From Magnolia sinica (Eukaryota; Streptophyta; Magnoliopsida; Magnoliales; Magnoliaceae), in NCBI RefSeq assembly GCF_029962835.1, contig NC_080578.1, forward strand, positions 48,415,001 through 48,479,000: a stretch of 64,000 nucleotides of DNA, written 5' to 3'. This document shows, in pieces, positions 18,523 to 64,000 of this stretch (position 1 is its first letter; every line of letters starts with the position of its first letter). The position numbers and the translations under genes were made by a program. Under the pieces are notes generated by a model. The model was not told the origin of the DNA. It saw nothing but the letters and a program-made list of their open reading frames with translations, and made no database searches.

Positions 18523-18524
<2 letters not shown>

Positions 18525-20215: not shown

Positions 20216-20224
20216 AAGGGATGG

Positions 20225-24665: not shown

Positions 24666-24715
24666 GATATAATATATATTATATTATATTATATAATATA
24701 TAATATAATATACAT
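24666..24715. repeat. AT-only imperfect palindromic stretch in LTR-III
   Basis: About 48 bases of A and T only, built of TATAT/ATAATATATAAT units that can fold back on themselves. It lies within the module array of LTR-III. Confidence 0.7.
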
Positions 24716-38666: not shown

Positions 38667-38690
38667 GTTTGGCGCCGTCTGTGGGAACGA
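38667..38690 (+). other. Primer-binding-site-like sequence of Tat1
   Basis: TTTGGCGCCGTCTGTGGG begins two bases after the 5' LTR. A TGGCGCC... start directly after the 5' LTR is the usual tRNA primer site of many plant gypsy elements. I do not assign the tRNA. Confidence 0.7.
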
Positions 38691-38700
38691 CATTGTAAGT

Positions 38701-40450: not shown

Positions 40451-40467
40451 GAAGCATCCACCATCCG

Positions 40468-40878: not shown

Positions 40879-40911
40879 TGTTATGCCACAACACTGAAAG
40901 CTCCATCCAAA

Positions 40912-42474: not shown

Positions 42475-42504
42475 GTTCAAGAATAGGCCGCTCCCGCCCA
42501 TTCC

Positions 42505-42940
42505 CTTTGGAAGCTCTATGTTGATGGCTCTTCCAACTCTAAGGCAAGCGGGGCAGGGGTTGTCTTGGAAACTCCTGATCACACACATGCAGTATGCCTT
42601 ACGACTTAGGTTTCAAGCCTCCAACAATACAACAGAATATGAAGCTTTACTCGTAGGACTTCGCTTGGCGGCCAGTTTGGGAGTCACTCATCTTGACGTA
42701 TACAGAGATTCTCAATTAGTTGTTAACTAGATAGTCGATATCTACTAGACTAGAAAAGAGAGACTAAAATCCTACCTACAAAAAGTAAGAGAGTTGATCG
42801 GTGGGTTTCAATATTGTACCATTGTCCGGATCCCTCGAGCTGAGAATGCCAAAGCCGACCTCTTGGTGAAGCTCACCTCGGCCAATGAAGATGAAATCCC
42901 CAGGTCTGTCCCGATTGAGTATGTTGTCGAGCCAAGCGTT
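42505..42940 (+). pseudogene. Tat1 second (archaeal-type) RNase H
   Basis: WKLYVDGSSNSKASGAGVVL (about 42508-42567) followed in the next frame by FQASNNTTEYEALLVGLRLA, LGVTHLDVYRDSQLVVN and IVRIPRAENAKADLLVKL. This extra RNase H downstream of the RT-linked one defines the Tat lineage of Ty3/gypsy elements. A frameshift near 42590 moves the reading from the gag-RT frame to the frame used by integrase. Confidence 0.88.
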
Positions 42941-43129
42941 AACGAGACCGACTCCGCAGCCATGCTCCCCATTGACTCGGGACCTACTTGGGTCGATCCT
43001 ATTATTCGGTATATCGAGGCCGGTGAGCTGCCTGAAGATCAAGTCGGCGCCCGACGACTGAAGATCCGAGCCTCCCGCTGCACTATGCTCAACGGAATCC
43101 TATATAAGAAAGGATTCTTCCCACTGCTC

Positions 43130-44173
43130 CTGCAATGTTTATGACCTAACGAGGTCGACTACGTCATGCGAGAAATTCATGAAGGTATCAGTGGCAATCA
43201 CTCTAGAGGACGATCTTTAGCTCATAAAGTTGTTCGGCAAGGCTACTACTGGCCGACCATCCAGCAAGACACCCAGAAGCTCGTCCAAAGCTGTGATAAA
43301 TGCCAAAGATTCGCAACGGTTCCTCAGCAGCCACCGGAGGAGCTCACCCCAATGGTTGGCCCTTGACCCTTTGTTCAATAGGGGATCGACATCATCGGAC
43401 CTTTCCCAATAGAGAAGGGACAAATCAAGTTCGTTGTCGTCGCTGTAGACTACTTCACCAAGTGGGCAGAAGCTGAACCCTTGGTCAAGATAACTGAGCA
43501 AAAAATTACAAATTTTATTTAGAAAAATATTATCTGCCGATTTGGGATACCTCGGACTATCATTTCTGACAATGGAAAGTAGTTCAACAACCGGCAATAT
43601 CGAGAGACGTGCTAAAACCTCGGGATTAGGAACGTTCACTCGTCTCCACGTCATCCCCAGGTAAATGGACAAGTTGAGGCTGTTAACAAGATAATCAAGT
43701 AACATCTCCGAACCAAGCTCGACCGAGCTAAAGGAGTGTGGACCAAGGAACTTCCTAAAGTTTTGTGGGCCTATCGAACAACGACTTGGACTGCTACAGG
43801 CAAGACCCCGTTCTCCCTAGCATATGGGTCAGAGGCAATTACCCCCGTGGAAATCGAATTAACGACCGCTCGAGTAAGCTCGTTAAATGAACAAGACAAC
43901 GAGGAACTACTGGCGCTCAACCTCAACCTTCTGGAAGAACAAAGAGAACATGCTCGACTTCGGACAATTGTACGTCAGCAGCAAGTATCTCGATTCTACA
44001 ATGCTCGAGTCAAGATTAGACGATTCCGAGTGGGAGACTTAGTCCTCCGGAAGACATTCCAAAACACCAAGGAGGTCGGTACAGGTACATTGGGGCCTGA
44101 CTGGGAAGGACCTTACGTCATAGCTGGCATCGTCCGACCTGGTACATATCGATTGGAAGATCTGACCAGCTAG
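43130..44173 (+). pseudogene. Tat1 integrase
   Basis: The HHCC zinc region reads HEGISGNHSRGRSLAHKVV...GYYWP...CDKCQRFA (43170-43320). The DDE core has GIDIIGPFPIEKGQ, DYFTKWAEAEPLVKI, RTIISDNGK and HPQVNGQVEAVNKIIK, so the three catalytic acids are present. The C-terminal part WAYRTTTWTATGKTPFSLAY...VGDLVLR...LGPDWEGPYVI (43736-44173) is open. Several TAG stops (for example in TNFI-stop-KNI) look like CAG/TGG derivatives. The protein would join element DNA to the host chromosome. Confidence 0.9.
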
Positions 44174-44527
44174 CTATTGCCTCATCTTGGAATGCCGAGC
44201 ATCTCAAGATCTACTATCCTTAAGTTGGCTGTCGTACAATTATCACGCAACCTTCATCGGCAAACATGCCAGGATTCACGACAAACAATGTAAATCGGAC
44301 AATGGATTGCAAGGAAAAATGTATTCATTGATCATATCAGAAATGTCGCATCGATATTGATTCAACATTTACATCAGTATTACATTAGCAAAAAAACAAC
44401 AACAAAAGTACATAATGTTAAGGGTGGACGATGCTCACTTCTGCAAATGCTCTCGAGCTCAGTGCTCGGTGTGCTTGAAGTGCCTGAAGCAGATGTGGGG
44501 AGCAGAAAGGAATTTTGCTCCACAAAG

Positions 44528-46700
44528 CTAACTTCTAAGCTCGTCCGCCTCATCAAGAGCTAACTCAGGGGCCACCGAAGGACCTGCCTCAGGAGCAACA
44601 TCAGGAGTCGCTTCAGTGAATGCCTCAGGGTCAACTGCGACTCCCTCGCCCGGGCCGTCGGATCCTGATTCGCTCTCATCGAAGCCATAGAGGCTGAGCT
44701 CGGGAAAACTCTCGTTCATTCCCCTTACGCACTCGGTGTAACCTTGACGGAAGAGATATTCCTCTCATCTTTTAAGGCCTGGGACGTTAGATACTCTTCC
44801 ACGACCTCTCTTCGAGCAATGGCAAGAGCGGCCTTAGTCTCCACCCTATCCCGATTGGTTGCAGTGCAAGCTTCAATGCACTCTTTGTGGCTCTTATCAA
44901 AGACCTTCCTAGCCTCTTCCAATCACGAGGCCAGACGGGGCCTTTCCGCCTAAGACTCTCCGAGGACGACCCTTGTCACCTCGAGGTGGCCCTTTGCAGA
45001 GACGGCCCGAGCCACGACAGACGATAGCCGAGCCTTCGCCTCTTCAGCTCGCCTATTGGCCTTGGGTAGCTCGGCTCGACCCTTCAGCGTGCATGGCGCG
45101 AACTACAAAAAGAAAAGAACGAAGCTCAGTGTTGAGAAAACTGGGCAGGCTAGCAACAAAAGTTACACCCTTACCTTCAGGAGCACCGTCGTCATCTTGG
45201 CAAGCGTCAACTCCATAGAAGGTGACTCGAAGAGGCTGATGAACTCCTCCTCGGTCCCCTGCTTACTTGCCTAGGGGAGTATACTTTTGACATGCCAAAG
45301 GAAGCTCCCCCTCTCTTCCTCAGCAGCCTCCTACCTCCGAGGATCTTCCTCCCTCCTCGGGGGGACCTATTCTGCAATAGGTCCTGGCTCGGAGACCTCC
45401 CGAGGCTCAGGAGGAGCTGCTCCCGCCACCATCATGGCCTCCTTCGGGACCTCTATAATGATCGAGCGAGGGGGGCGACCTTCCCCCAATCCTTAGAGGA
45501 TGCCTTCTATCTCTTCAACACTCAAGGATCTCCCTAAGGCGAGGCCCTGACCTTGGAAGGAGGACGAAGAGTAGGCCCAGCCTTATACATCTCTACATAT
45601 CAGAAGCAAGAACTATGTAAGCAGAATTATCATTGTTAAAGAAAAACTGTTAGAGTCAAATCTTATCGATTAAAGCCGTGTTAAGACCCGACTGAAGAAG
45701 GCGCTCTGGTTGGAGAAGCCTCTTCCAAGATCTCCTCTCCGGACTAAAGGCTCGCAAGTCATAAATCCGAGTTAGGGAATCGGGAGCAAGCCTTGGCGGT
45801 TGCTTGGGGACAACTGACAAAACACGAACAAGCAGTTAGAAGGCATAATAAGGAGGACTCAACCGACTAAAGCGACAAGCACAATATTTTTCTGTATTAC
45901 CTGCCTTGGAGAAGGCCTGGGGAACAAAGGGACTGAAGGGCCCTAGCTCAGCCGTTTCCCAACGATCAAAGGTCTAGAACCACCAATCCCTCCAGTTTTT
46001 GTTAGAGCATGGAGGATCAGTTATCAAAGCCCTGCCAGTATTCCACTAGGAACAGAAATAATACCAACTAGGCTACTAGGGGTTCGGCCATACTTGATAT
46101 AGGTGGAGGAATTCATCCACGCTTTGCTCGGGTTGCTTCATCTCAACCCATAGAACTGCGCAACTGAACAGGTCCCTCCACCCATTCGGGGTAACTTGCC
46201 TTAAAGCCATGCCGAGGCAACCTACGAGACGCTGTTTGATCTCTTGAAGAGGAAGATGAAGGGCGCACTGCAACGCAACCTGGAATATTGCGACCGGTCG
46301 GGCAGCTCATCCGGCAGAGGAAGATGCAGGATGACTGACTCGGGAACGTGATACCCAGTATGGATCCGAGATAAGTCATTCTTAGTCAAACTGAGGGCAC
46401 CGGTCCCTTGGACCCTTCCTCTACCTCGGCTTCTTCAGCCTCATTTTCAACCGGAGAGTCAAACCGGCTAGAAAAACCTTCGATAGCTGTCTCCCGCCTG
46501 GGAGACAGATTCGACGCCCTAACAGACGTTGCCGGCCTTTGCGCCGAAGAATCCAACACTCCTTAAGAGTGACGAAATAAGGCATCTGCTTCCACCGCTA
46601 TCTCCGCCAACAATGAAGATGATTTCGAAGTAGCCCAAAAGCCACTCGCTTCACCTTCGTCACCGTAAACTCCCTCCCAAGGGCTTATGGGGCTTGACAT
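44528..46700 (-). pseudogene. Tat1 antisense gene, 'putative gypsy type transposon' (PF04195-like) protein
   Basis: A broken gene reads opposite to gag-pol, between integrase and the 3' LTR. Its start MSSPISPWEGVYGDEGEASG is at 46700. The central block has LTKNDLSRIHTGYHVPESVI, ALHLPLQEIKQRLVGCLGMA, LRQVTPNGWRDLFSCAVLWV and a WYYFC-like NKNWRDWWF segment. This matches my memory of the PF04195 family of plant retrotransposon antisense genes. The C-terminal part (44725-45200) is charged and coiled-coil-like (EEARKVFDKSHKECIEACTA). The tail (44528-44719) is acidic (YGFDESESGSDG). At least two frameshifts and several stops are present. Its function is not known. Confidence 0.75.
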
Positions 46701-47179
46701 TCTTAAAATTAAAGGGGAGGGAGAAGGAGCTCACCGGAGTTTTGAGGAGATGCCGGAAAATGCAGAAAAAGCAAGAAGCAGAGAGAGGAGAGATGGAGAT
46801 GGGCGCGAAATTGCAAGAATGAGGACTCTAAGGCACCCCTTTTATAGCTGTGCCATGTGGCTCTGACATTAAATGGGAAGTCGAATTGGGGTCTCCTCGA
46901 ACGCCCCAGCCCAACACGTGGCACCACACCACGTGCCGCTTGAGCTTGCCATCAAAGGCTCTGCCACGCGTCTCCCTCCTATTCATCTGGCTATCGAAAC
47001 GACGGCCCTACAGCTTGTGCAACCTCGGAAAGCGAACCGACACATGTTAGAACAAGGTAATGTGCACCGATATTCGTGTTGGCCGACGTACAAGCAATAA
47101 ATGCTCCATCATAAGCTCGGTCCAAGTACATTTCGACTCAATTCCTATCTACTCCTCGGCTTCCACGGGTCAACACAAG

Positions 47180-47196
47180 GAGTAAGGGGGGTTTAC
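47180..47196 (+). other. Polypurine-tract-like sequence of Tat1
   Basis: AGGAGTAAGGGGGGTTT lies just before the 3' LTR, where the plus-strand primer of LTR retrotransposons normally is. Confidence 0.6.
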
Positions 47197-48011
47197 TATT
47201 GGGGAAAAATATGACAAGTTCGATAAGTCGGCTTATATGTGAATGACATGGCCCGGACTCACTAGGCTCTGAGCCTGACCGAGGCCTACATGTCCAGTAC
47301 CACAAGGCGAGACCTCTAAGGAGGCCGAAACACCTTAAGGATCCCTTAGGAAATTCCTTGGGACCAATCCATGCCAACTCATTTCATGGGTCGGCCATCA
47401 TTTAGGTATAAGTTGACCTAACTTTGGCCCAACCTTAGTCCGACCTACCTTCTAAGTCGGCCAATAAGGCGGCCATCGATCAACAATAAGTCGATTATGA
47501 ATCGATCGCTTCTGACTAAGGGTCAGATGAATAGTAGAGGAAAAGAATCGACTCGTGCCCGAGAACGCTCCGGGGTTGGCCAATGGCTTGCCGAGACACT
47601 TATTCTCAACTAGAGACTTATCAACGGATCTCGCCCTGAGCCGAGCCAAGAATCGACTAAGAGTCGGCCCATATTAGAAAATCTTCTTTCGAGATCTTTG
47701 GAAGATAATCTCCAATACCGGGAATCCAGGGAATTGAGGATCTCGGGATCGTCCAAGGTAATGATCTATCCCATTTAGGGAAGGTCCCGAAGTTACACGG
47801 GATCAATTGTCCTTTATAAATAAGGAATGTCTGATGGTGAAAGGTACACACACATTCTCACCCCAAAATCCCTATCAAATCACTAGACCTAGAATCCAAG
47901 TCTGACTTAGGCATTGGAGGGTCCCCTGTACAAGCCAGGGTCTCCTTTGTCCTCTCCCTGTGTAGGTGTCCGAGCAGCGGAAAAGGGGGTGAGCAGAAAA
48001 CAACATCAACA
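47197..48011 (+). repeat. Tat1 3' LTR
   Basis: It matches the 5' LTR nearly end to end. The start has decayed to TATTGGGGAAAAATATGACA, and the end is AAAACAACATCAACA followed by GATGG, the target duplication. Confidence 0.9.
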
Positions 48012-49900
48012 GATGGCATATAAACATCAGTGGACTTAGGAAGTTTTGGATCGAACTCATTTTCAGCATAACATGAGCTGGCAAAACCGATAAACACACA
48101 AAATCACAGCGGCCCATCGTGATGTTTGTGAGAAATTCACTATATCCATCTGTTTTGCTAAATAAAGTTAGGGGATGGGCACAAAATAAGGTAGATCAAA
48201 ACCCAAGAGGAAACAGTGAGGGTTGAACGTCCACCATTGAAACAATCATGAGGCCACAAAAGTTTGGACTAGGCTAAAATTTTTGTGTTATCAGTTAATC
48301 CGGTAGAAATGAAGATGGCATATACAAATCATGGTGAACCCTGAGAAGTTTTCATCGGTAAGCATTTCCCTACCCACTTGAATTTTGGTTCTGCTTCTTT
48401 TTTGAGTCAATGTGTTAACATAATCTGGCAAAACGGATGAACGGGATAGATTTCATGTAAACATCGTGGTGGCCCCACTTCGCTTCTCGTCGCAGAAGTT
48501 ACTGCGAAAGGCTTGGGCTGGCAATCCGAGTCCCCGCTAGCCAGATTATTTTGTGCACCTATGCATGTGGGATGCGGATTGCGTCCTACCCCTACCTGGA
48601 CGGTTTCCGCGTCCCACCCCCGCCCGGACGGTAATCCGTCCGGGCAGGGCTCTGTGGGGCCCAACATGATGTAAGTATTTTATCCACAACGTCTATCGTT
48701 TTTCTCATATTATTTTAAGGTATTATAGAAAAAATGAAGCAGATACACTATTCCAGTGGACCACATCAAAGGAAGCTGCAGTGATAATGACACCTACCGT
48801 TGAAACCTTTCTAATGGCCACCGCGATGTTTTTTTACCACCCAACCTATTAATAAGGTTTGATGAAGTGAAAACACAAATTTCAGCTTGATCTGACACTT
48901 CTCCGGCTCCTAAGAAGTTTTTAATGGTGGACGTTCAATCCCCACTTTGTGGTCCACTTAAGCCTTGAAACTACTTCAATTTTGTATCATACCTTATATT
49001 TATCATATAAAAATGATTAACGGTGAGCATGGGTAGGGCGCAATCCGTGTCCATGCATGTGCAACTCTGACCTGGATCCGGTACCATCTAGGGCAGGTAC
49101 AGGGACAGCTCTGTGGCCCCCAAAAATCTAGTGTTTTATCCACGCCCTCCATCCATTTTTTCAATTCGTTTTAAGGTATAAGTCAAGAAATGAGGCAGAT
49201 CCAAATATCAATTGAACCATTGCACGAGAAACAGTGATGATTGAACACTCGCTATTAAGTATCCATTAGGAACCACAAAAGTATTAGATGAAGCTGATAT
49301 TTGTTTCAGGACTCTTGCGCGCTAATCCTCAGGTTGTATCACAAATAAACGTTACAGCGGGCTTTCGATTTTTTTTTTTTAATCTTAGTAGTGGGCTTTC
49401 AATCACCACTGCTTCCTATCGTGTGCTCTGAGATTTAGATCTACCTAATTTTGGGCTAATGCCTTAAAATGAGCTGGCAAAATGGATGGACGGCGTCGAT
49501 AAAGCACATACATCGTGGTCGGTCCATGGAGCCGTTACCGTGGTAGTCAAAGGCGTCACTGCTGAATCCGAATGCATCAAACTCGGTCCTAACCGCGCGG
49601 ACCATTCAAAAATTTTTAGGGTTCTCCATCCTCGCTTCGCAGGTGTCTTTTCTTTCTACCTTCCACGCATCTCTCTCTGATTCAGTACACTTTCAAAATC
49701 AAATTCCACCGTGCCATCTGTGCAGTATACCCGAGCCGTGCAAAACGTGGGCCCCAACCGTCACCTTGTGCGAGAAAACCAGGCTGCTCCGCTCATGAGG
49801 TGGGCCACCATTCGTGGAAGCAATGGTCGCCTTAAATCAGACCTGCCAATTGGTCTGTTTCAGCGTCTACATGTGTCCCTCCTGATGAGCGGACCGGCAT
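48012..49900. other. Old repeat DNA and upstream region of the zinc-finger gene
   Basis: 48017-49150 contains several degenerate copies of the dispersed module and of a phrase like AGTGGACCACA...GTTGAACG, in both orientations. Near 48520-48660 are two copies of a CCnCCCGGACGGTnnCCG-type block, and 49030-49130 is a diverged repeat of the segment at 48530-48660. From 49600 on the sequence becomes leader-like (TCTCTCTCTGATTCAG near 49675). I see no exon before 49990. Confidence 0.4.
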
Positions 49901-50011
49901 GATTTTTGTGTCGGATGATTATTTTATTTTATTTTTTCAATGTTGTTTTCGTTGGCGGGGAAACTGATATTGTCTCCGATGGTGCTATACAGGACCTTTC
50001 CAGAACCACAT

Positions 50012-50326
50012 ATGTCTTCGTCGTGCCCCTTCTGTCATCTTACTATTCCGTTACTAGAGCTTGAATGGTATCTCTTTTCTTTCCTGGCATGTTTTATGAA
50101 GTTCTTTCTACAATTCTTTTGAATTTATGATTGCTATTGTAGTTTGATGCGGGTCCGCTTTTCTGTTTGGCATTTTCGGAACATTCTTCTACTTATGCGT
50201 TCGGGATTTGACCTTGTGTGCAGGCACGTGAATGATCACCTTGTGGAGGAAGAACTTGCTAGGGACATGGATCTGGCGCGACAGATTGCATCAGCCCCAA
50301 GTCCTCCTAGAGTCATCGCTGTGCCT
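50012..50326 (+). CDS. C2H2 zinc-finger protein, 5' two exons; ZUFSP/ZUP1-like (peptidase C78) candidate
   Basis: Exon 1 is 50012-50067 (MSSSCPFCHLTIPLLELE plus two bases). The intron starts GTATCT and ends TGTGTGCAG at 50223. Exon 2 is 50224-50326 and completes Trp, then HVNDHLVEEELARDMDLARQ and IASAPSPPRVIAVP, with a donor GTATGG after it. Joined, they give C-x2-C-x11-H-x3-H, a ubiquitin-binding-type zinc finger, followed by an acidic helix. By memory this N-terminus resembles plant proteins with UBZ fingers and a UFM1-specific-protease-like (C78) domain, which remove K63-linked ubiquitin; no catalytic part is in view. The same frame is open back to 49940, but CTATACAG at 49985-49992 looks like the acceptor of a 5'-UTR intron, so I chose the ATG at 50012. 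Tat2 begins 284 bp after exon 2, inside what should be intron 2. Confidence 0.65.
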
Positions 50327-50609
50327 GTATGGTGTTTGTAGCGTATCATTCTGCTTGTTGATATTACTTGCAGCGAATGCATTAGCTTTGTGCATTTTTC
50401 TTTGTAGTTTGAACAATATCATGGTGCTTTTTTTGTTGCTCAGAAAAAAATCATGATGCTTTGCTTCTTTTTGTTTCTTGTGTAATTGATTGGGATGTTA
50501 TCCGAATATCTCCATTGATACTCATAAACTACACCAAATAATGTCATTAATCTAGGGATGATTTGATTGGTTCTCTAAGGTTGTTTGGATGCCTGTAGAT
50601 GGTTTAAGT
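50327..50609 (+). other. Start of intron 2 of the zinc-finger gene
   Basis: T-rich sequence beginning GTATGG, with no coding sign, up to the Tat2 LTR. TTGTTTGGATGCCTGTAGA (about 50581-50599) could be the end of a small TIR element, but no partner was found. Confidence 0.45.
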
Positions 50610-51525
50610 TGTAACTGTTCACTCGTTTTTCCCAGCACGGGTGGAGTGCAGGCGTGCTAGAATTGGGATTGTGGCTCCAATTCAAACCGAACAACTATAA
50701 CCCCGAGCGTGAAAGTAGGCAGACACAGGGTATGACCGAGTCTGAGAAGATTGGTTGCCTATTCAGCCACTCGCTCAACGTGTAAACATATTAGATGATA
50801 GTCAGAGGGTGGGGTTCGTCCTCTGATGATGGGTCACTCTTTTGCCTTCCATACTAAAGGACTTTTCATTTCAAATAAAGCGAAATGAGAGAAAATGCCT
50901 TACAGTTGACTGTTATTGGCTTCAGAAGGATGCTCCTCCGACGATCGAATGAGGTTCAGCGCACGAGCTTAAACTCCAATTACAACCACAATTATTAGCT
51001 ACTAGATTATCACTACGAATTACACTACGAAATGTAAACGATGAGTGCTGAAGATAAATTATTACGCTAGAAAAGTAATTAGTTGGACGGAAAAGGTAAA
51101 TGATTACACTAAGGAATGTAAATTGACAAAAATAATTGAAAGATAAATTTGGTTTGATTGGTTTGGTATGAGACGACATTTTCTGCATGATTTGTCTTGC
51201 TATTTATAGTTTCGATCCAACATTCTGGATTCTTCCCACGTTCCAACGGTTATGGTAACTGTTTCTCCATTACTCTCTACTTATAAACACTTCCTATGTT
51301 CTGCTTCTTTGAATCATTCTTCAACCACCTATTCGATAGTCGTGTGAATTCAACCGTTACATCTCGGCCACTTTAATGTAATTGATTCGTTGTGGCTCCA
51401 TTTCTCGAGATGCAACCGTACATATTTGCAAAAGATCCTGCAACCGTTGCACGTGTTCCGTACAGATCACACGTAATCAACTCTGATTGGCTGAAAACAG
51501 AACTCGGTTGGATAGGGTACAAACA
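50610..51525 (-). repeat. Tat2 3' LTR
   Basis: In - orientation it starts TGTTTGTACCCTATCC at 51525 and ends GAACAGTTACA at 50610. A TATA box ACTATAAATA lies at 51210-51201. It directly follows a polypurine tract. The right partner LTR is outside the window, so the left border (after TAAGT, 50605-50609) rests on the TG...CA rule only. Confidence 0.7.
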
Positions 51526-51538
51526 TTGCCCCCCTCGT
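51526..51538 (-). other. Polypurine tract of Tat2
   Basis: On the - strand ACGAGGGGGGCAA lies immediately before the LTR's TGTTTG. It is the expected plus-strand primer site and fixes the LTR start. Confidence 0.8.
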
Positions 51539-51639
51539 CGCTGTCCTTACGGATAAAGTGACAACGAAGTTTGAGTTTTCACTAATTTTGCCCTCGAAAC
51601 ATTCACACGTGCTGCCCAATACGAACCGCCTTCGATTGA

Positions 51640-54600
51640 TTGCTTTACCATCAGTCGTGTCAAATCGAGGCGTCGGATGCGGCCAATGCATTAAAGACGA
51701 CAAGACTATGGACGAAACTACTTCCGGGATGGGAAGATTGGTTTTCGCGGGTATTGACCAAATATGGAAGTCTGTGGAAAAGACTTGGCATATATGAATG
51801 CATCAAATGATCCCTCATAGAATATGCACCCAACACGTCTCTTCTTCTTACTCTATCGTCATTTTGGAGTACTTCCTCCAACACCTTCATGTTTGGTTGT
51901 GGTCCGCTGAGTGTTACCATAAAGGACATATGTCATCTGACCGAGCTTTTGCCCTTTGGGATGACATACCACGCCAAGGCCAATATGCAACACAAAAACT
52001 TTCCCAGCAAGACCGCCAAAGGCTCTACTGCTTCCATGAATGTCTACCGCAAACTCGAAGGACCACCTCACATTCCTTCTCTTTTGGATCTGCCGTCATT
52101 TGTTATATGTCAACGCCCAATAGGTCATGGCTGAATATGTTACCTTGGCTGAATGCCTTGTCAATCAGCAACGCATAGCCATAGCACCATTCGTTCTCAA
52201 CCATCTGTATAGAGGTCTTTTCGAAGTCAATCGTAAAGTATTATACTCGGCGGGGGTGCCTATATGGCTTGCACAAATGTGGTTTGTAGCATACTTTCGA
52301 TCTTATCTCTTTGATTAGCAGCAGACTGACCAATCATTTTCTTCCAATGGTGACCGAATTCTCCACTCTCTGGAGACTAATACGGTCGATGAATACCTCA
52401 TAGGGTTCTTCTCTCTTGACAAATCCTATGACAATCAGTCATTCACACCCTTTGTAGAAGGAAAGGCTTACGGGCCTGAATGGCTCACAGGGCGATTTGA
52501 TCATGAAAACGAGCAATTAGTTGGTCGGTTGCATCAAGCTTGGACTTGCTACATCATCGGCCATGACTTGTCTTACGGCGGCATGATTGAGAAAGGCAAA
52601 AATGCGAAAGCATGGGTCGAACAATATCATCCTTCCTTGTTTGCTTGTCAATTGGGTCTGATGCAGTACATCCCCTTTCACCCATAAAACATACAACCAA
52701 CCTCCTTACGATCGTGTGATAGTGATCGATGAAGAACTTTACACCTCCCTCGATAACTCTTATCGTAAGGAGTCGGTCGCCTTGAAGATTCGAACATATC
52801 CAGAGTCTCCTGAAGCCATGAACAGTTTTGTGGCATGGTGGGATCGACAATATGTTAAATTTTTGGGCGGTCGAAGTACCACAGAGCTTCATCCCAGTTT
52901 TGCTCTCAATTGGGTTTAATAGAGAGCAGAAAAAGAAGCCCTGCATCGCCATCCACTACAGCAAAAAGAACAGTGAGGTTAAAGACGAGATCAACTGCTA
53001 CTTCTTCCACTCCGATGGCCGAAAATCCTTTCCCAGAGGTTTCATAGATTACCCAGGAGCATCTTAATATTCTTGCGGCTGCTCAGCTACAATGGATGGC
53101 TTCGAAGAAAAATTTAGATTTGAGAGGTATCTCCGGTCCTCCTCTAAAACCACCTATTCTTTCTTTTTAGCGCACAAAACCTTCTAAATCTCAGTCGACG
53201 CCAAGAGATCAACCGATATGACGATCGAGTCGGCCGTCAAGTACTTCAGCCAAGGCCGTGTTAGCTTTCGAAAAATATTTTAAAACCCAATAGTGGCTTG
53301 GTCTTGGTGTTAAGGATTATTCGTACGAGATTGACAAAGGTATAAAACACCATGAGGAGGCCCATTATAATAAATGCTGGAACAAATGGTGGCAGGATAG
53401 AGAGAGGTTAAATGACCCTAATCTTCCTTTCGACGAAAAATACCTAAAACCTTATCTTCATAAACCGCCATCATTTCCAACTTGACTCGGCCGTTAGTGA
53501 CTGTGATAAAAAATCCTTAAGTTGTCAAGGATCGGCCAGTCTTCCAAGCAGTTCGGTTTGATTTAGGTGGAGACTACTTGTATATTTCCTTAAAGTAATT
53601 CCCTTGTACCTTCACTGATACTGTTTTGATCCTTTTAGTGACTCGGGAATTGCCCAAGATGCTGGCGGCTCAAGAACAAGATATGCCACTAATACCGGCA
53701 GTCCCATTGACTGCAATTCTGCCGCCGATTTTAGCACCAACCGACACAGTGGCCGCAATAGTGATCACTCTCGTAATCCTGAAGGATCCTACCTCGATGA
53801 CTACAGAGGTGGTGTCTCTTGATTCAGAGACCACGACCGGTACAAAAGGCGTTCCTTCCAGCAACCCGCCTGAAGTTAGCACTGCTCCTATTGACTCAGA
53901 GCATGTGCGACAGACGACTCCACCTGCACCAACCACCTGCTCAGCCTTTTAGGCTAGTTCCGACTCCCTCACTTCCTCCATTACCAACGATGACCGAAGA
54001 GATTCCAACTTTGTCCGAATCTGAAACAGCAAATGTAACAGTAATGCCTGAAGGGTCGGTTGAAATCGAGAGAGTCGCGACTGATGATGAAACAATTGTC
54101 AAAACTTCAGCGGAGGTGATTAAGCAAGTCTTGATCGAGACTATGGAACAACAATTGGTCGATGTTGGGTAGCCGACTAAAGTTATTTCAGTCGAGATCC
54201 CTACAACACCGGCCGAGATAAAAATGGTTGATGCAAGTTCTCTACCATCTTCCTCAACAGTTATTCCTGGGGATGATGCATTTACTATTGCCGATCTTCC
54301 TCCAGTCGACGACATTCTTTCTTTGTTTGAGAAAGTTCTCCCCGAGGAGATGTCTGCGGCAAAATCTCCTCTTCATCTTGATAATCTACAAAGTTTACAG
54401 GCAGAGTTACACGACCTCCTCCGAAAAGGGTTATCCGAGTCCTTTGATGCCGAATTGATTGACAAGATCGGCCGATTGGTTGATTTGGCCTACATACTGT
54501 CTTAATCAGATCCAACTTTAGCGGCTAGAATACCACCTCTCTTGGAGCTTAAGAGAATACTTGATATGTATTGTCAAGCTTATTTAGTTGTTGCTCATAT

Positions 54601-54963
54601 TGAAGCTAAAAAATGAGTGGCCGATCTTAAGAAGGCTAGTGTGCAAGAGGTCGCCCAAGAACTTATGGCCAAGAATGCTGGGGTGAAGGCTTTTGAAATG
54701 GAAATTGAGAACTTAGAAGTCAGGATCGTGGTTTTGGAGGCTGAGCTGATTACACCGAGACAGAATCTGGCAGAAAAATGCACAGGACACCTCATGGCCA
54801 CAGATTAGATTTCCAAGTTGGCTACTACAGTGCACTCTCAAGCAGAAGACGTCAACCAATTGTCTCGATCGACAACAAAAAGGGAAGCATCATTGTGGAC
54901 TGCTAGAAGACGGGTGGAAATGGCTAGGGTGTTCTTGGAGAATTATTTGTCTTTTGATTTCTA
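51640..54963 (+). pseudogene. Tat2 antisense gene: plant mobile domain (PMD) protein with coiled-coil tail
   Basis: It reads opposite to Tat2 gag-pol. The PMD part has GWEDWFSRVLTKYGSLWKRL (from about 51727), LLLTLSSFWSTSSNTFMF, GCGPLSVTIKDICHLTEL, VLNHLYRGLF (52196) and AWVEQYHPSLFACQLGL. It ends with a MNSFVAWWDRQYVKFLGG block at about 52818-52871. The linker (53640-54300) is Pro/Thr/Ser-rich. The tail (54380-54963) looks coiled-coil: SLQAELHDLLRKGLSE, EVAQELMAKNAGVKAFEME, LEVRIVVLEAEL. PMDs are found in retrotransposons and in the host silencing factors MAIN/MAIL1. The reading changes frame at about 52125, 52690 and 53940. Nearly all in-frame stops fit CAA/CAG/CGA to TAA/TAG/TGA. The start codon is not certain. 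Confidence 0.75.
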
Positions 54964-55183
54964 AATCTGACATCTTCTTATGTGAACGAATAGCCGTTGA
55001 GCCTTTTTTGACTTCGCTCCTTCGAGTAACTGCTTGTAATTATTTTATGAGTGTTTCCTTGAGTTTTGGCGGAACGTGGGTCGTTCCTGAACGTTATGCC
55101 TTAACTGCCCAGTTTCAAACAAACTAAAACGTGCAACTCCCTCTCGCCACGCCTCTTGTGGAAAGTGAGCTTTTAGACCCTAC

Positions 55184-55193
55184 TATTTAAATA
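55184..55193 (+). promoter_or_regulatory. TATA-like box of antisense gene A
   Basis: TATTTAAATA, 58 bp before the ATG of gene A. Equivalent boxes precede genes B and C at similar distances. Confidence 0.45.
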
Positions 55194-55241
55194 GCATTGA
55201 GTTCCTGACTTCGGTTATCCTTTTGAATTTAATCTTTCCCA

Positions 55242-55904
55242 ATGGCTATCGAATTACCTTCTCTCATTACCGGCACTGAATCCTTTCTCAAGGAGATCTT
55301 CAATGATGGGTTGAAAAACTTTTCTTTCTCCTTTTTGCTATCCGATGTTAGGAGATTTGTTACTGATGCTTCTTGCTCACTTGATCTTCATCCTTCAGTC
55401 GAGTTGAATGATCGACTAAAAGGACTACTCGGGAAACTGAAATGGTTAACCGTCATAGGAGATCATTACGAAAGATCGCACTATCTTCGTGAGATGAATG
55501 CGTGCTATTTCGAGCAGCAAGATACGATTGTGAAGGACTCGGCTGATATGAGCGGTAAATATGAACTGGCTTGGTACGACAAGTTACGTTGTACTCAGGC
55601 ACATCAATTCAATCGAATGATGCTTAAAACATTGCAATCTTACTGCTCTGGTCTGATGGACGAATTACAGGAACGAGGCAACGCTTTTTATGAGAAGGAG
55701 ATAGCTGTTCCATCAGATATGGAATTCTTGGATGAACAAATTCTTTTATATCAAAATCAGTTGGTGGCAAGTTATGCTGCTAAAAAGGCGGTCGTTAGCG
55801 AAGTTCACTCAACTGCTATTCGTGTCGATCAACTACTTCACTTCTTGCCACGCCTTATCGTGGAAGGAACAGTTGGAGTCATGCCAAGGAGAAAAATGAA
55901 GTAG
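55242..55904 (+). CDS. Antisense small gene A of Tat2 (intact, 220 codons), unrecognised family
   Basis: A fully open frame, the longest intact one in the right half of the window apart from Tat1 RT. Starts MAIELPSLITGTESFLKEIF. The middle has LRCTQAHQFNRMMLKTL, followed by LDEQILLYQNQLVAS and a basic C-terminus (PRRKMK). It appears helical, with no signal peptide or membrane segment. A TATA-like TATTTAAATA (55184-55193) lies 58 bp before the ATG, and AATAAA is at 56025-56030, about 120 bp after the stop. Genes B and C to the right share its layout and key residues, so it is the first of a tandem triplet. It begins 278 bp after the PMD gene on the same strand. I do not recognise the family and give no function. 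Confidence 0.7.
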   Translation: MAIELPSLITGTESFLKEIFNDGLKNFSFSFLLSDVRRFVTDASCSLDLHPSVELNDRLKGLLGKLKWLTVIGDHYERSHYLREMNACYFEQQDTIVKDSADMSGKYELAWYDKLRCTQAHQFNRMMLKTLQSYCSGLMDELQERGNAFYEKEIAVPSDMEFLDEQILLYQNQLVASYAAKKAVVSEVHSTAIRVDQLLHFLPRLIVEGTVGVMPRRKMK

Positions 55905-56316
55905 AGATGCACGCTCTTAGAAGAATTTGAAAGTTTGAAGATCTTATTTGTTTTGCCTTTAGAATTTTGCTTTCTTTTTATTTTTATTTTTGTAATCATG
56001 CAGTCGATGACCAACACAATGATGAATAAACTTTTAACTTTTAAACAAGCTACAAATATCATACATCCTTTATCTCGGCCGTAATGCATGGATTGAGTGG
56101 TCCTTTTACAATCCACCTAGCCCTTGTGTATACACCCGTTACTTGGCCATTTTCAGCCGTGCTTGTCACGTCCTCGCTATAGTGACACATCGCTTCTTGA
56201 AAGACATCCATTAATTTTGCTGCGTCCCAATGATCTTGGGAAAGACTGGATTTGTCTCGAGAAACCCAAGCATCACTGCTCCCCACGCGTATTAATTGCT
56301 GCACTGCTACGCCTCG

Positions 56317-56326
56317 TTTATAAAAA
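56317..56326 (+). promoter_or_regulatory. TATA-like box of antisense gene B
   Basis: TTTATAAAAA, 83 bp before the ATG of gene B, within otherwise GC-balanced spacer. Confidence 0.45.
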
Positions 56327-56399
56327 CAGAACTTGGGTTCCAAGTAGCCTCACAAACCCACTTGACACAAAGCCTTCAGCACTATAGCCTCAATCTCCG

Positions 56400-57113
56400 A
56401 TGGATCCTCTCTCTTAGGTGACTAAAATCATGGAGGAAATACTTTTAGAGGGACTAGATTCTTTTTCAAACTCTTTCTTGCCTGATCCTTCTCCTTTCAA
56501 CTCTTTCTTGCCTAATCCTTCTCCTTTCATCCAAGGCGTTGCTGCACTTTCTGTAGATTGCCAATCTACTCAAGTGATCATGGAGGTTCTCTCAGAAATC
56601 CGACGACTTGGAGAAGAATACACAGCTGCAGATCAAGAACTCGACCACTTTGATGCTTTTTTTTTTTTCTCAAACCTATCATCTATTAACACTGAATGCA
56701 TGGCTCTACCAATCCATTAGGAGATGACTTGACAGAACATAGTACGTTGGACCCGCGAGTGTAACTTTGACAAAGAGATGTTGCTGTCGATGAGGCTTTC
56801 CCCTAACAATGCTGACTTGGCTTAGGTTCATCTGCTTTACCCAGATCGGGTTCAGCCAAAAAGCGAGGAGCTAGCCGCATTCATTATGTCCCGGATAACA
56901 TTTTACTGGGGCCGCATCGCGTCCAGCGAAGCTGGGAAGAGATCGGCCGAACAAGAGCATGAAACCCTCGGCCAATGTCTTGCTAGCGTAGAACGTTCCT
57001 TTATTGCGCTAGCAGGCCAGTATAATTCATGGATGGGGAGGCGACACGCTCTGATGGAGGCAAAAGTTGCGGTTGAGAGGAGGTTTGAAGAGCTCAGGCG
57101 AGCCCACTTGTAA
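56400..57113 (+). pseudogene. Antisense small gene B of Tat2 (one frame, four stops)
   Basis: One frame runs from MDPLS at 56400 to the stop at 57111-57113 (237 codons), broken only by TAG at 56415, TAG near 56718, a TGA shortly after, and TAG near 56823. Each is one C-to-T step from CAG or CGA. Contents: SEIRRLGEEYTAADQELDHF, VRWTRECNFDKEML, then ELAAFIMSRITFYWGRI, ASSEAGKRSAEQEHETLGQC, ASVERSFIALAGQ and a basic C-terminus FEELRRAHL. It aligns along its second half with gene C (ELVAFVEAQIALYQGR...SEAEKRLAESKH...YIEHTLVKLVSQ) and more weakly with gene A. A local duplication (SFLPDPSPFN / SFLPNPSPFI) lies near the N-terminus. Unknown function. Confidence 0.7.
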
Positions 57114-57565
57114 TTTTGATCATGACCATCTCCTTCATCTGTAGCTTGTCCATTCCATCCTCATCCTCATCCTGTTCTTCTTTATCCCCACATTTTTGTA
57201 ATTAACGACCCAATCCGTTTTGTAATTAACGACCATTGATTGACCGCTCTTGGACTTGCTTTTCGCTTTTACTTCGTGTAACCAGGCGGTCAATGACTAG
57301 TGTATTACATAGATTTCCATGATGAATATAATTTAATCGGTCAATGACATTTTTGTATTGCAATCTTTAGTGATTAACTTAGACCTTACCTTCCACATGT
57401 AGTTACAATGTTTAACCATTCTGTAACGAGCGCCATACCTTAACCATACTTCCTGAACAAGCTCCATCTATCTCGCCATATCCCTGCTATCCCGGGAACA
57501 ACTCCTTCAGTATCGGGTAACTAACCGTCACACCGCTCCCTACGTGCAGTAACTGCTCGCATTGT

Positions 57566-57577
57566 AATATATAAAAG
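57566..57577 (+). promoter_or_regulatory. TATA-like box of antisense gene C
   Basis: ATATATAAAAGT about 65 bp before the ATG of gene C, a strong TATA-box match. Confidence 0.5.
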
Positions 57578-57632
57578 TGGTGCTTAGGTTAAAAAAATAT
57601 TTAGCTAACCAATTTAAGCCCGAGTCTCTATT

Positions 57633-58311
57633 ATGAAAACTCCAGCATCCATGGATTTTTTCACTATTTCCATCAAAATAATGGAAAGTCTTCGCGATCT
57701 CCCTTCACCGGCGACCCTTTTCCTTTCCTTAGGGACGTTGACAATCTTCTTGAGAAGGAGCGGCCTCCTCGGGAGATTTTGAACCTCATCTCCGAGCTCT
57801 GGCAACTTGGAGATGTATTCGCCAAGGCAGACATAGAGATCGAACGCTGTACGACCACTTTAAACTGTCTGTCAGCCTTCAGTGTCGAGTGTAGGGCTTT
57901 ACCAGCCCACTTTGCGGCAGCTTGGAAGAACGACTGCATTGGATTAGTGAGCATGAGTTCAATAAAAAAATGCTGCGAATGTTGACGCGTTCGCGTGACC
58001 GCATCCTTATTGACTTGGCTGAGACTAATCAACTATACCTTGACCGCGATTGGCCGGAGAATACTGAGCTGGTTGCGTTCGTGGAGGCCCAGATAGCTCT
58101 CTATCAAGGGCGCGCTGAGGTTAGCGAGGCCGAAAAGAGGTTGGCTGAGTCAAAACACATGGACATCGACCACCGTTTGGCCTATATCGAGCATACATTG
58201 GTCAAGCTCGTAAGTCAATAGGCTTCCTGAACTGAGAAGCGCAATTTGGCGATAGAAGCGTGGGTTGAAGCTGCCAAAAGCTTTGAACATATCAAGTGGG
58301 CCGGCCGGTAG
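57633..58311 (+). pseudogene. Antisense small gene C of Tat2 (frameshifted)
   Basis: Starts MKTPASMDFF at 57633. Reading continues after a shift with ILNLISELWQLGDVFAKADI and CRALPAHFAAAW. After a second shift near 57930 it reads WISEHEFNKKMLRMLTRSRD, ELVAFVEAQIALYQGRAEV, SEAEKRLAESKHMDIDHRLA and IEHTLVKLVSQ. The last part, FEHIKWAGR, ends at 58311 after two more stops explainable as CAG and CGA. About 225 codons originally, close to A (220) and B (237). Its end is tail-to-tail with the integrase end at 58458, 146 bp away. Unknown function. Confidence 0.7.
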
Positions 58312-58457
58312 TCCCGTTATTCAGCTTCTCCTCTTTTTCTGTCATCTTCTTCCTTATATGATATTTTGCAACCAATAGCCTCTAAGCTTTATTTGAACGT
58401 ATGTTTACTATAATTAACGATCCCTTATCGAGGGTTTTATTTAAATGTAAGCTCTAT

Positions 58458-59603
58458 TTATTTTACTGAACTAGTTCGGCCCATCTTGATAACTTCCCAT
58501 AGTGAAGGAAAGCGGTGTTTAAAAAATCGGCCGTTTATAGGTGCATGTGCAACATTGCCATTAAGGTCCCTTAGAACGTAGGCTTTTCCTTTAAGGACTT
58601 GCTCGATGAAATATGGTCCGTCCCAGGTGGGAGACCATTTGCCTAACGCTCGGTTCTTCTGGCCGATGGGAAAAACCATCTTCTAGACCATGTCCCTTTC
58701 TTCGAAAGACTTTCCTTTAACCCTTTTGTTATACACTCTTACCACAATTGCTTTGTTGACCATGATAGAATTCAGGGCTCTGATATGAAACTCATCCAAC
58801 CCTTGAGCTCGGCCATCATTGCTTTTGTAAACTCTGGAGGACTAAATTGGGATTGATGTGCAACTCGCAATGACGGAACTATAATCTCCATAGGCAATAT
58901 TGCCTCATGCCTGTAGGTCAACGCAAATGGATTGACCCCTGTACTTGTATGCGGTGATATTCTATAGGCCCATAAAGCTTCAGATAGCTTGAGATGCCAC
59001 TCTCGTGGATTTCCTCGTATCATCTTCTTCAAAATGTTCTTGATTACCTTGTTGCTAGCCTCGGCCTGACCATTAGCCCGGGCATAATATGGGGTTGAAT
59101 GCAAGATCTTTATGCCATATTGGTCGGCCATGGTGCGCATTTCCTTGGCCGAGAAGGCAGCACCTCGATCCATGGTAATGGATTCTGTCACCCCAAAACG
59201 ATGAATGATGTTGGCCTCAATGAAGCTAATGATTTTTTTCGTGACCGACCTTTCTCATGGGTTTTGCTTCGACCCATTTGGTAAAGTAATCGGTTGACAC
59301 TATGATGAATGTATCCAGCCGGGTTGAAGGAGGGTGAATCTGACCAATTAAGTCGATCGCCCATCCCCGAAATGGCCATGGCTTTATGATAGGATGCAAT
59401 TCGGCTACAGGCACATGTTGGACTGGCCCATTTATTTGACACGCCTCACAACCCTTTGCGTATTGGATACAATCGGCCATCATTTCTAGCCAAAAGTGCC
59501 CATAACACCTAAGCATAAGCCTTATCTTCCTTCTCGCTTGGTGAGCCTCGCAAATGCCTTTATGAACTCCTTCCATGACTGACATAATTTCATTCTTATA
59601 CAA
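58458..59603 (-). pseudogene. Tat2 integrase
   Basis: The zinc region has HKGICEAHQARRKIRLMLR, GHFWLEMMADCIQYAKGCEACQ. The core has GWAIDLIGQIHPPSTRLD, DYFTKWVEAKPM, then after a one-base shift near 59235 ESITMDRGAAFSAKEM and ARANGQAEASNKVIKNILKK. D, D and E of the DDE triad are all present. WAYRISPHTSTGVNPFALTY and the C-terminal GKWSPTWDGPYFIEQVLKGK complete it. Its 3' end abuts the antisense gene cluster. Confidence 0.92.
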
Positions 59604-59836
59604 ACATCGAAGTAAAACTCCATCGGTCCCTTACCGATACAGTTCATTATCAACCATCACATAATTGATGGCCGACCTTCACACATTCCTGTCAGTCTTA
59701 GTGCGAGGACTTTGTAAGTAACCCATGAGAGGAGCTCACCAATCACCCTCTTCAACTTCTATTTGACAAATTTCCACCAATTTTTCTCTCTGGAAAACCT
59801 TCTTTGGACCGTGACCGACCGACCGGTCGATCCTTT

Positions 59837-60235
59837 CTAGGCTTCTAGACCTGTAGCTAGTTGTGCCATTTCGTTGGCATCCACATTATGCTCTCGAGTG
59901 ATGTGCATCAGCTGGACCTCATCAAATTGTTCGAGTGACTGGATTTGCACAGCATAGTATAGTGATAAAGATGAGCTGGTGCACTTAAACGCTCCCGCCA
60001 TTTGATTTATCACTAGCTGTGAATCCCAGATGATCATCACGTCTCTTACTCATAATTCTAATAATATCTCTATGTCGATTATCATGGCTTCATACTCGAC
60101 CTGATTGTTGGTGCATTCAAATTCTAACTGGAACGCAAACTCTTGCCGATTCCCATTAGGAGCAATCAATAGTATTCCAGCTCCAGACATCTCATGTGTC
60201 CTCGACCTGTCGAAAATCAATTTCCACGGTGTCAG
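59837..60235 (-). pseudogene. Tat2 second (archaeal-type) RNase H
   Basis: WKLIFDRSRTHEMSGAGILL (the family's usual W-x-LYFDGS reads FDRS here), ECTNNQVEYEAMIIDIEILL, then IWDSQLVINQMAGAFKC and MHITREHNVDANEMAQLATG. One stop separates two open pieces. With the Tat1 copy it places both elements in the Tat lineage. Confidence 0.88.
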
Positions 60236-60289
60236 CTGCACATAATATAGATCTAAGATGCCCAAAGGAATTTGCTCCTCGAGATCTGA

Positions 60290-60840
60290 AAGGTGATCGG
60301 CCAAAAAATCTGTTATGACCCGACCTTTTATTGCTTTCTGTGGCACATAATACAAATCAAATTCAGATAAGGTCAACACCCATTTAACAATTTGACCGCT
60401 AAGAGTCAACCGATTTAACATATATTTCACTAAATCAGTCATAACTATTACATTTACTCTCTAGACCAACAAATAATGCCTCAATTTAGTGGCCGCGAAG
60501 TACAATGATAAGCATAATTTTTCTATAGCTGAGTACCTTTTCTCCGCATCAAGCAACGTCCGACTCAAATAATAGATTACCCTTTATTTTCGCATGTCAT
60601 CATCTTGAGCAAGGAGAGCCTCGACCGAAACTGCCGAAGCTGAGATATACAACTTGAGCGGTCGATTCTGTATAGGGGGAATCAACACAGGTAGCTTCAT
60701 TAGATACTCTTTGATTTTGTCAAAAGCCAACTGCTGCTCCTCCCACACAAATTTGGTCCCTTGTTTCAATTTGAGCAAATGAGAAAAGATGTTAGTCTTG
60801 CCTGCGCAGTTAGATATAAATTGCCTAAAAAAATTTACAT
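60290..60840 (-). pseudogene. Tat2 RNase H (RT-linked)
   Basis: FVWEEQQLAFDKIKEYLMKL, PLKLYISASAVSVEALLAQD, then VIYYLSRTLLDAEKRYS and VKWVLTLSEFDLYYVPQKAI. It links RT and the second RNase H. Single stops interrupt it near 60584 and 60442. Confidence 0.88.
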
Positions 60841-60862
60841 GACCTAGGAATCTCTACAACTC

Positions 60863-61746
60863 TTAAGTCTTATTTCTTAGAGGCCGTGCATTAATTACGG
60901 CCTGGGCCTTGTTTTGATCGATTTCGATCCCTCTTTGATGTTCCAGGAATCTTAAGAAATTATCGGCTAAGACGACAAAAACGCACTTCAGTGGATTCAT
61001 TTGTAACTTGTGGTGTCTCATCCATTCAACGGATTTGCGCAAATGTGCTTGGTGCTCGCTCACATCGATCGATTTGACTACCACGTCGTCTATATAAACC
61101 TCCATAAAGCGACCGATCATGTCATGAAAAATGGTAAATTGCCCTTTGATATGTGGCACTTGCGTTCTTCAACCCAAAAGGCATCATGACCCAACAATAC
61201 GTTCCCAAGGGTCTTGGACATCTGAATGTTGTCTTGGGAATGTCATCCAATGCTTTGTATATTTGATTGTACTTAGAGTGCCCATCTAGAAAGGACACAA
61301 TCCCGTGTCCCGTGGCCCAGTCAATAAGCTGATCGGCTATTGGCATGAAATATTCATCCTTCGGTGTAGCCAGATTTAAATTTTGAAAATCGATACATAC
61401 TCTCAACTTACCGTTCTTTTTCAGTACGGGGACTATATTCGACATCCATTTTGCATATTTAATCAGTCGTATAAAAATGGCTTTCAAGAGTCGCTCGATC
61501 TCTTCCTTAATCTTGATAGTGATCTATGTCGTCAATCGTCATCCGCCTTGGCGGTTGTTTATACGGCATGTACCCTTCCTTGGGTAGCCTGTGTTTGACC
61601 AGGGATCTATCAAGTCCTGGCATGTCATGATAGTCCCACGCGAAGCAGTCAGCAAACTTTGAAAGCAGACTTATTATCATTTCTTTTTCAGGCGGACGCA
61701 ATAAGTTGCTTATGAACACTGGCTTTAGGTCATGATCTGTTCCCAA
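60863..61746 (-). pseudogene. Tat2 reverse transcriptase
   Basis: It begins with FADCFAWDYHDMPGLDRSLV and YKQPPRRM (61507-61746). Then come NGKLRVCIDFQNLNLATPKD, SFLDGHSKYNQIYKALDD, MPFGLKNASATYQRAI and the catalytic YIDDVVVKS (about 61100). LQMNPLKCVF and EHQRGIEIDQNKAQAV follow. Two frameshifts and few stops. The catalytic aspartates are intact. Confidence 0.92.
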
Positions 61747-61752
61747 ATTAAC

Positions 61753-62207
61753 TTAAACAAGTGGGTCCTGAACTTGCTGTCGATCATCCTCTTTTTCTTC
61801 GAGGAAATCTTCAAACTTTAAACCATCTTCTTCATTCGGTTCGCTTTTTTTAGCCAAATTCACAAACATTCCTTTATTGGCCTCCTCCAAACTCTCTTCA
61901 AGTCTTTTTATTCTGGCCGTGAATTCGGCCCCGATCGTCTCTTTCTTTAGTGCTTCAGTCATGGGATATCCTCAATGACACAGCGAGGGACCACCCTATA
62001 AAGGACAATGCCCTTCGGTCGGTCATCATTGCTTTGAGTTACCTCCAAAATGGCTTGCACGATACTTTCTGGATTCTTTTTCACGGTAATTCCAGTAGGG
62101 CGACCAAGTTTATTTCTTCCAGTAAATTTGATAGGTCCTACCTCTTCGCCGTAATAATATACTTCGTTGGCGTTTGATGTGGCCAAAAATGGCTTATTAT
62201 TGGCCAT
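61753..62207 (-). pseudogene. Tat2 protease-RT linker region
   Basis: Charged linker of the gag-pol frame: GEEVGPIKFTGRNKLGRPTG and SIVQAILEV (61959-62207), then a Glu/Lys-rich stretch (61753-61962). No domain recognised. It is open apart from one frame change. Confidence 0.6.
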
Positions 62208-62231
62208 AATTAGCTCTACCTTGTTTTGATT

Positions 62232-62903
62232 CTAGAAAATGACTAATTGGTGAAGGGAGGATGGGATGCATGCGAAAGAATGGATCCAATCCCTTCCTAA
62301 TAGCACATTGTAACTTGATGAAGTATCCACCACAAAGAATGGTGCTAACACTGTCTTAGTGCCCATGGTCAAATCGACTGGCAAGACGCCATGTGCATTT
62401 TTGACGTGGTCAACAAAATTGCTAACGGTTACCTTTGACGGGATTAAATCGGTCATTATCTTGCCCAATTTAGCCATCATCATCTTCGGCAATAGATTGA
62501 CTGCGGCCCCATTGTCTACTAATATCCTGGTTATAGGACATCCGTCTAAATGGGCCGATATATACAATGGTTTAAGGTGTTGTGTCATGTCGCTGGTAGG
62601 TTTATCAATAATTACTTTTTCAGACGCACCATCAACCATTATAGTGATTGTATCAACATGTGGCGTTTTCTCAGTGCTGATTTCGCTTCTCTCTCGTTCC
62701 CCAAACGGAAAGGAAGCATGCTGTATGATTATGGGAGGGGAATGTTCTTCCACATCCCCAGGCATTGTGTTTGGTTGTGTGGGCCGTGCCTGAAAGCTAT
62801 TCGGCAGTGTCAAGACCATATTACAATGGAACGTTACAGGAGATAACGAACCAAACACAATTTCACCACTCAAACCTTGCCCCCCTAGTTTTTTCAGATT
62901 CAA
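62232..62903 (-). pseudogene. Tat2 aspartic protease
   Basis: A 223-codon open stretch. HLKPLYISAHLDGCPITRIL is followed by the active-site block VDNGAAVNLLPKMMMAKLGK, then VDLTMGTKTVLAPFFVVDTS and YNVLLGRDWIHSFACIPSSL. The family's D-[ST]-G reads D-N-G, a variant I have often seen in Tat/Ogre-type proteases. The piece is still open although its neighbours are broken. Confidence 0.85.
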
Positions 62904-63216
62904 TTTTATTGATCTAGCTGCGGGGTTCTTCTGTCATAGGTTCGGCTTAGAATTTGGTCGTTGGCATATGTTTTTCTGCATTTGCGGTCGACGAGAGTTC
63001 ATTGACCAACCATTTTTTGCCTAGAAACAAACTTCACTTAAGTAATCAGACATATTACCACCACTGTCTTCTTCTTTAAACTCTTTCGACCCTGCCGAGT
63101 GGTTTGGCGGGTCGGCAGTATTCTGTGCTTCAATTGGTAGGATGACTTCGATTTTATTTACTGCCACTTGCTCATCCATCTTGGGAGCTCTCCAAAATGG
63201 ACGATGAAGTTCGGTG

Positions 63217-64000
63217 CTAAGCTAGGAGAAAGTTCCTCCCCTTTCTGCTCCTCTTTTTGTCACGGCTATCTCTCTTTGCCATCGACGCTTTTGAGGTTTT
63301 GTCATGGTTTCCGGCACGGCTGGAAACTTTGGGTGAACAACTCGTTTCCATACACCTTCCCGCATGTTTGGAGGCTTGACTGTTCTCGTCAAGGGTGGCC
63401 CCCAACGTGAGCGGCGAACATAAGCTAAATTCGTTGATCGTGCTCGACCATGAATACTACTGCAGTATTCTCTTCCCCTTTCGGGAGGGTTCCTTGATGG
63501 CGACATGATTTCTCGCGCGCATCGACCGTGGATCTGAGAGTTTTGCTGTCTATCATTGGTAACGGTTGTTCGATCATTATGAGGACGAGGAGTCCAACGA
63601 TACCTTCGCCTTTGTCGACTGGCCTTCTCCCATGAATTTCTTGAGTCGAGATTGATCTTTGGCCTTGGACGGCTCCTGAAATCAGCCGTGACCATATTTC
63701 TATGTTGGCAGGAAATGGATTGGTGTTGATCAACATCGCCTCCTTGTCCTTCTCAGGGAACTTCAGTAAACCACGGTCGATATGATCTTGGATTACGTTC
63801 CTGAAAACAACACATTTGTTAGTGGCATGTGACGGAGAGCCATGCCATTTACAATAGTTAATCTTTTACAATTCCTTGGTTGAGGGTATTTTATGATTGA
63901 TGGGAATTTTAATGAATTTCCCAACCAATAGAATATCAAATATTTCCTCACCTCGGGTGATATCAAAGGCATATACTTTTTAAGCCTTTGTGTGGTCAAG
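63217..64000 (-). pseudogene. Tat2 gag, C-terminal part
   Basis: The nucleocapsid-like motif CKWHGSPSHATNKCVVFR (about 63855-63800) keeps its C-x2-H-x4-H-x4-C spacing. NVIQDHIDRGLLKFPEKDKE and TNPFPA follow, typical of Tat-lineage gag. Downstream is a basic linker (63222-63695, RRRYRWTPRPHNDR). The N-terminal capsid region lies beyond the window. Confidence 0.82.

Follow-up and report, generated by a model that had tools for sequence, protein, structure and literature searches.

Genes that run antisense to gag-pol are already known in plant retrotransposons of the Tat/Retand type, where their function was described as unknown (PMC7264820, PMC11963269, PMC6317226). In representative elements of 63 Retand clusters, 104 antisense ORFs were reported, 57 of them with Transposase_28, and SMC-like coiled-coil ORFs were among those listed; every representative element had at least one antisense ORF, and the tandem arrays described in that report consisted of units of 8–100 bp, not of genes (PMC11963269). 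Another example is gene23 of maize Grande, an antisense gene which has its own upstream promoter and codes for a nuclear protein (PMC7264820). The plant mobile domain (PMD) was described as the most frequent atypical domain (PMC9289625), and the PMDs of Gypsy elements as clades PMD-A1 and A2, with the host proteins MAIL1 and MAIN acting in silencing (PMC5418596). In the literature consulted, we found no description of paralogous antisense genes arranged in tandem, which is not a claim that none is in print; what sets the locus reported here apart is its set of antisense duplicates.

We identified three small related genes (units A, B and C) on the + strand of a 64,000-nucleotide stretch of the Magnolia sinica genome (the window), flanked by two broken genes, a PMD gene that is also on the + strand and a Tat-type pol on the – strand (Table 1). 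Their starts were spaced by 1158 and 1233 nt, leaving 495 and 519 nt between consecutive units, and our ORF reading of the + strand agreed with the coordinates, lengths and spacing given in the initial annotation. That annotation had also assumed a single antisense gene per Tat element, which is contradicted by the 104 antisense ORFs over 63 Retand clusters (PMC11963269) and by the additional + strand PMD gene of the Magnolia copy, which it had not included. This PMD gene lay 5' of A and was larger than any of the three units.

Table 1. Positions of the units, their putative promoter elements and the neighboring parts of the host element (window coordinates)
Feature	Position	Strand	Remarks
Possible polypurine tract	51526–51540	–	purine-rich, by eye; suggests 3' LTR to left; partner LTR would lie beyond window
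Broken antisense gene with PMD fragments and long tail	51811–54967	+	true ends not fixed
PF10536, piece 1	51811–52131	+	E 1.9e-5, below Pfam's cut-off
PF10536, piece 2	52127–52312	+	E 3.9e-7, below Pfam's cut-off; colinear with piece 1
TATA-type box TATTTAA	55184–55190	+	58 nt before A ATG
Unit A	55242–55904	+	ORF intact, 220 codons
TATA box TATAAA	56319–56324	+	81 nt before B ATG
Unit B	56400–57113	+	single frame; ATG at 56400; four in-frame stops before the final one at 57111–57113
TATA box TATAAA	57570–57575	+	63 nt before C ATG
Unit C	57633–58311	+	broken; apparent ATG at 57633; two frame changes; two in-frame stops ahead of the final one
C1 (piece of C searched separately)	57632–57958	+	front half
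C2 (piece of C searched separately)	57922–58218	+	back half
Broken pol	58458–62903	–	protease, RT, RVT_3, integrase zinc finger, partial integrase core
Integrase zinc finger	59226–59603	–	E 5.9e-6
RVT_3 (additional RNase H)	59837–60049	–	E 5.9e-8
RT	60866–61484	–	two pieces, E 4.7e-9 and 5e-8

In the pol region, RVT_3 was found between RT and the integrase zinc finger, and the order RT, RVT_3, integrase is that of Ogre and Retand (PMC6317226). By the additional RNase H criterion, the host element classifies from its sequence as Tat-type, of the angiosperm type (Ogre or Retand), and this order together with the upstream PMD gene places the set in a Tat-type element. The assignment leans to Ogre over Retand because PMD was reported in 57% of Ogre elements (PMC6317226). 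Matches to the protease (E 1.2e-4) and to part of the integrase core (E 2.2e-4) were below Pfam's cut-off; the gag-side piece, the 130-aa piece directly before RVT_3 and the final pol piece had no match at the limits used, and two other pieces of the PMD gene had no Pfam match. The units were antisense to gag-pol and just past pol, with about 150 nt between the end of C and the pol stop; strand, position and the placement of RVT_3 support the initial view of genes antisense to pol within a Tat-type element. With the 3' LTR side judged by eye, the order of the element would be 3' LTR, PMD, A, B, C and pol. The copy is dead or dying, since pol, the PMD gene, B and C are all broken. That A is the sole intact unit may carry little weight because A is short.

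Local BLOSUM62 alignment scores, each judged against 2000 shuffles, connected the three units. None of the shuffles was as high as the scores of A–C2 (86), B–C1 (92) or B–C2 (150). The direct A–B score was weak (44; 38/2000 shuffles as high), the front of A against the front of B scored 42 (13/2000) and A against C1 scored 31 (416/2000), with no signal between the front of A and C1 (21; 1797/2000). Because A–C2 was strong and the front of A gave nothing against C1, A is by sequence a member of the family by way of a shared core, its front half having drifted far. Within the window, tblastn linked A to the back piece of C (E 1.2e-5) and linked the back and front pieces of C to B (E 5.6e-15 and 5.5e-7, respectively). 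The shuffle tests and tblastn bear out the paralogy that had been proposed, and the outcome named beforehand as refuting it, no A–B–C similarity, did not occur. When all 36 frame pairs were compared, the + strand coding frame was at the top for A–B, A–C and B–C (for B–C, 178 vs 141 for the best minus-strand pair). The shared motif was LRCTQAHQFNRMML in A, VRWTRECNFDKEML in B and LHWISEHEFNKKML in C; the signature described earlier was found in all three units except for its W, which is missing from A. A core profile recovered A, B and C, whose own scores are no proof since the profile was made from them, together with one chance-level match (E 0.17) in the 64-kb window. A fourth unit in the window was not detected by this profile.

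We then scored identity by codon position in ungapped blocks taken from the protein alignments, in which approximately a quarter is expected by chance. Positions 1, 2 and 3 were identical in 46, 51 and 31 of 78 codons for B–C, in 40, 35 and 21 of 77 codons for A–C and in 21, 19 and 11 of 44 codons for A–B. The deficit of position 3 relative to positions 1 and 2 had p values of 0.0009, 0.0013 and 0.017, respectively, all based on small numbers. Position 3 identity was near chance for A–C (0.27) and A–B and above chance for B–C (0.40; 0.35, or 22/62, in the longest B–C block). The contrast was slight in the B–C front half (0.58, 0.60 and 0.49 for positions 1, 2 and 3 in 78 codons), and a 16-codon B–C block had none (0.50, 0.69 and 0.56). 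The stronger conservation of positions 1 and 2 points to old duplications, that of A being the older, and to selection on a protein of the + strand. In addition, B and C have few stops relative to their divergence, suggesting that they diverged mostly while the genes were held open, before the loss of their frames.

Each unit was preceded by a TATA-type box. Between 51530 and 58470, six + strand TATA-type matches were found (53341, 55184, 56319, 57568, 57570 and 58438), compared to 3.5 expected. For a 71-nt slot, which was set post hoc, shuffles gave a chance of 0.032 for a match in one slot and of about 3e-5 for all three. B and C also had in common a 34-nt stretch just upstream of the TATA box (0/500 shuffles), and A shared no upstream stretch with B (324/500) or C (48/500). 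For the downstream flanks, 7/500 (A–B), 375/500 (A–C) and 123/500 (B–C) shuffles reached the observed score. A further + strand TATAAA was present at 51282 in the probable 3' LTR and is a possible promoter for the antisense PMD gene.

Relatives of the units were sought in Pfam, in PDB sequences and in a collection of 5.8 billion proteins. For A as well as the B and C pieces, a Pfam search at E up to 1 yielded just weak hits that fell short of the cut-offs, consistent with the initial statement that no domain was recognized in them. In the protein collection, A had 126 candidates and an alignment of C2 with B, whose stops were treated as residues, had 1348, none at E up to 10. As a control, 88 of 94 candidate proteins from the same collection matched an integrase piece of the element at E up to 0.001, and 21 of these were named for a flowering plant, so plant proteins are present in it; the best match of the integrase piece came from Magnolia sinica (79% identity across 64% of the query), a hint of a magnoliid host. 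Gene annotation habitually leaves repeats out. The absence of relatives from the collection is only moderately telling, due to this omission and to the word filter in the protein search. When viral contigs were scanned with A and with C2, eight stretches came up for each query, none confirmed; two PDB sequence searches had a single match apiece (E 0.58 and 0.25), which we judged to be chance, and the best match in PHROGs (E 0.038) was a family of unknown function.

Structure prediction for full-length A from four rows gave a helical model that was not usable (pLDDT 46.8). The C2 core, predicted with rows of B and A, reached a pLDDT of 83 and a pTM of 0.61, with helices at 2–34 and 45–98. The core of C is therefore predicted to be a two-helix hairpin, and the motif [HN].F[ND][KR].ML falls in the first helix of the model. 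Foldseek returned 446 PDB and 717 viral-library matches for this core at E up to 10 and none at 0.001, a long weak list of the kind expected for a two-helix hairpin.

Compared to known systems, the units resemble gene23 and the Retand antisense ORFs in their location just beyond pol, toward a putative 3' LTR, their strand, their small size and their lack of clear homologs. By description, they are set apart from gene23 as three tandem paralogs, each with a TATA box and without Transposase_28. Transposase_28 proteins of Retand are likewise antisense and occupy the same zone (PMC11963269), but A and the pieces of B and C had no match to PF04195 at E up to 1. The PMD proteins of Gypsy elements are represented here by the gene immediately 5' of A and in the same orientation; however, none of the three units matched PF10536 at E up to 1 or resembled the tail of this PMD gene. 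The units could still be far-diverged members of a known antisense type, either the tail of a PMD or Transposase_28 protein or a Retand ORF of the SMC-like coiled-coil kind, in which case intermediates would link them. The strand and the apparent zone are the same, A and the C2 core are predicted to be helical, ORFs of this type have been recorded for Retand elements (PMC11963269), and very rapid divergence has been described for the additional ORFs in plant retrotransposons (PMC6317226). We nevertheless consider this origin rather unlikely, as the Pfam matches of A and of the B and C pieces were no better than chance. Derivation from the PMD tail of the element was also unsupported, because 773, 65, 336 and 1654 of 2000 shuffles reached the scores of A, B, C1 and C2, respectively.

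A function as antisense RNA, for example in double-stranded RNA with the element transcript, would make the proteins incidental. B and C are broken, and a dsRNA-type role has been raised for antisense transcripts (PMC7264820), but the low position 3 identity in the + strand frame and the top alignment scores of that coding frame make such a function improbable. Invasion of a host gene cluster by retrotransposon pieces, named beforehand as a refuting alternative, seems more doubtful still. The element was seen as one copy with only one end, itself a guess, which leaves some room for it, but the units fill the space from the PMD gene to the pol stop, and the gene order is that known for Tat antisense genes (PMC11963269), so their position does not favor a host cluster. 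The even spacing of the units might also reflect a recent, meaningless tandem duplication within a single dead copy; this is contradicted by the divergence of the units, with position 3 identity as low as the B–C and A–C values given above and no direct repeat of at least 40 nt within 44000–64000, and we regard it as very improbable.

The explanation that we favor, and hold to be somewhat probable, is that a Tat-type retrotransposon carrying PMD had an ancestral antisense accessory gene, that this gene underwent two duplications, and that the three copies were retained as proteins until this copy of the element decayed. Paralogy, strand, placement with the PMD gene on one side and pol on the other, a protein-type pattern of conservation and the TATA boxes were all observed, in an evidence base of one element copy, mostly broken. 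Under this explanation, each unit would have a promoter of its own driving transcription antisense to gag-pol and would code for a small helical protein with a helical hairpin as its core. By analogy, this core may oligomerize with the paralogs, the tail of the PMD protein being a further conceivable partner. The proteins might act as nuclear regulators that aid expression of the element or its escape from silencing, an analogy drawn from gene23 and PMD proteins only, and the diverged copies may serve different partners or targets. If one antisense gene was indeed duplicated and three copies were kept under protein selection, then the proteins matter, not antisense RNA alone, and paralogs become available in which conserved residues and partners can be compared. 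We more tentatively put forward, as a joint possibility that is less probable, that the units represent an undescribed small helical protein family, with three paralogs in a plant LTR retrotransposon, each having an antisense promoter, and that they form a multigene accessory module similar in layout to the set of accessory genes that complex retroviruses carry; an arms race with host silencing might have driven its diversification.

Additional repeats were present elsewhere in the window. One example, at 37838–48012, is a second LTR element, this one on the + strand; its direct repeats (37838–38667 and 47202–48012) were 90.5% identical. Its interior contained RT (E 1e-27) and, after it, RVT_3 (E 4.3e-6), and for this reason it is probably Tat-type too; neither tblastn nor the core profile detected a relative of A, B or C in it. 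Repeated blocks were found within 13358–25893 (for example, 13358–14598 vs 21637–22912, 79% identity). An inverted repeat at 49131–49507, with 59-nt arms that are 78% complementary and 259 nt apart, is perhaps a small inverted-repeat transposon.
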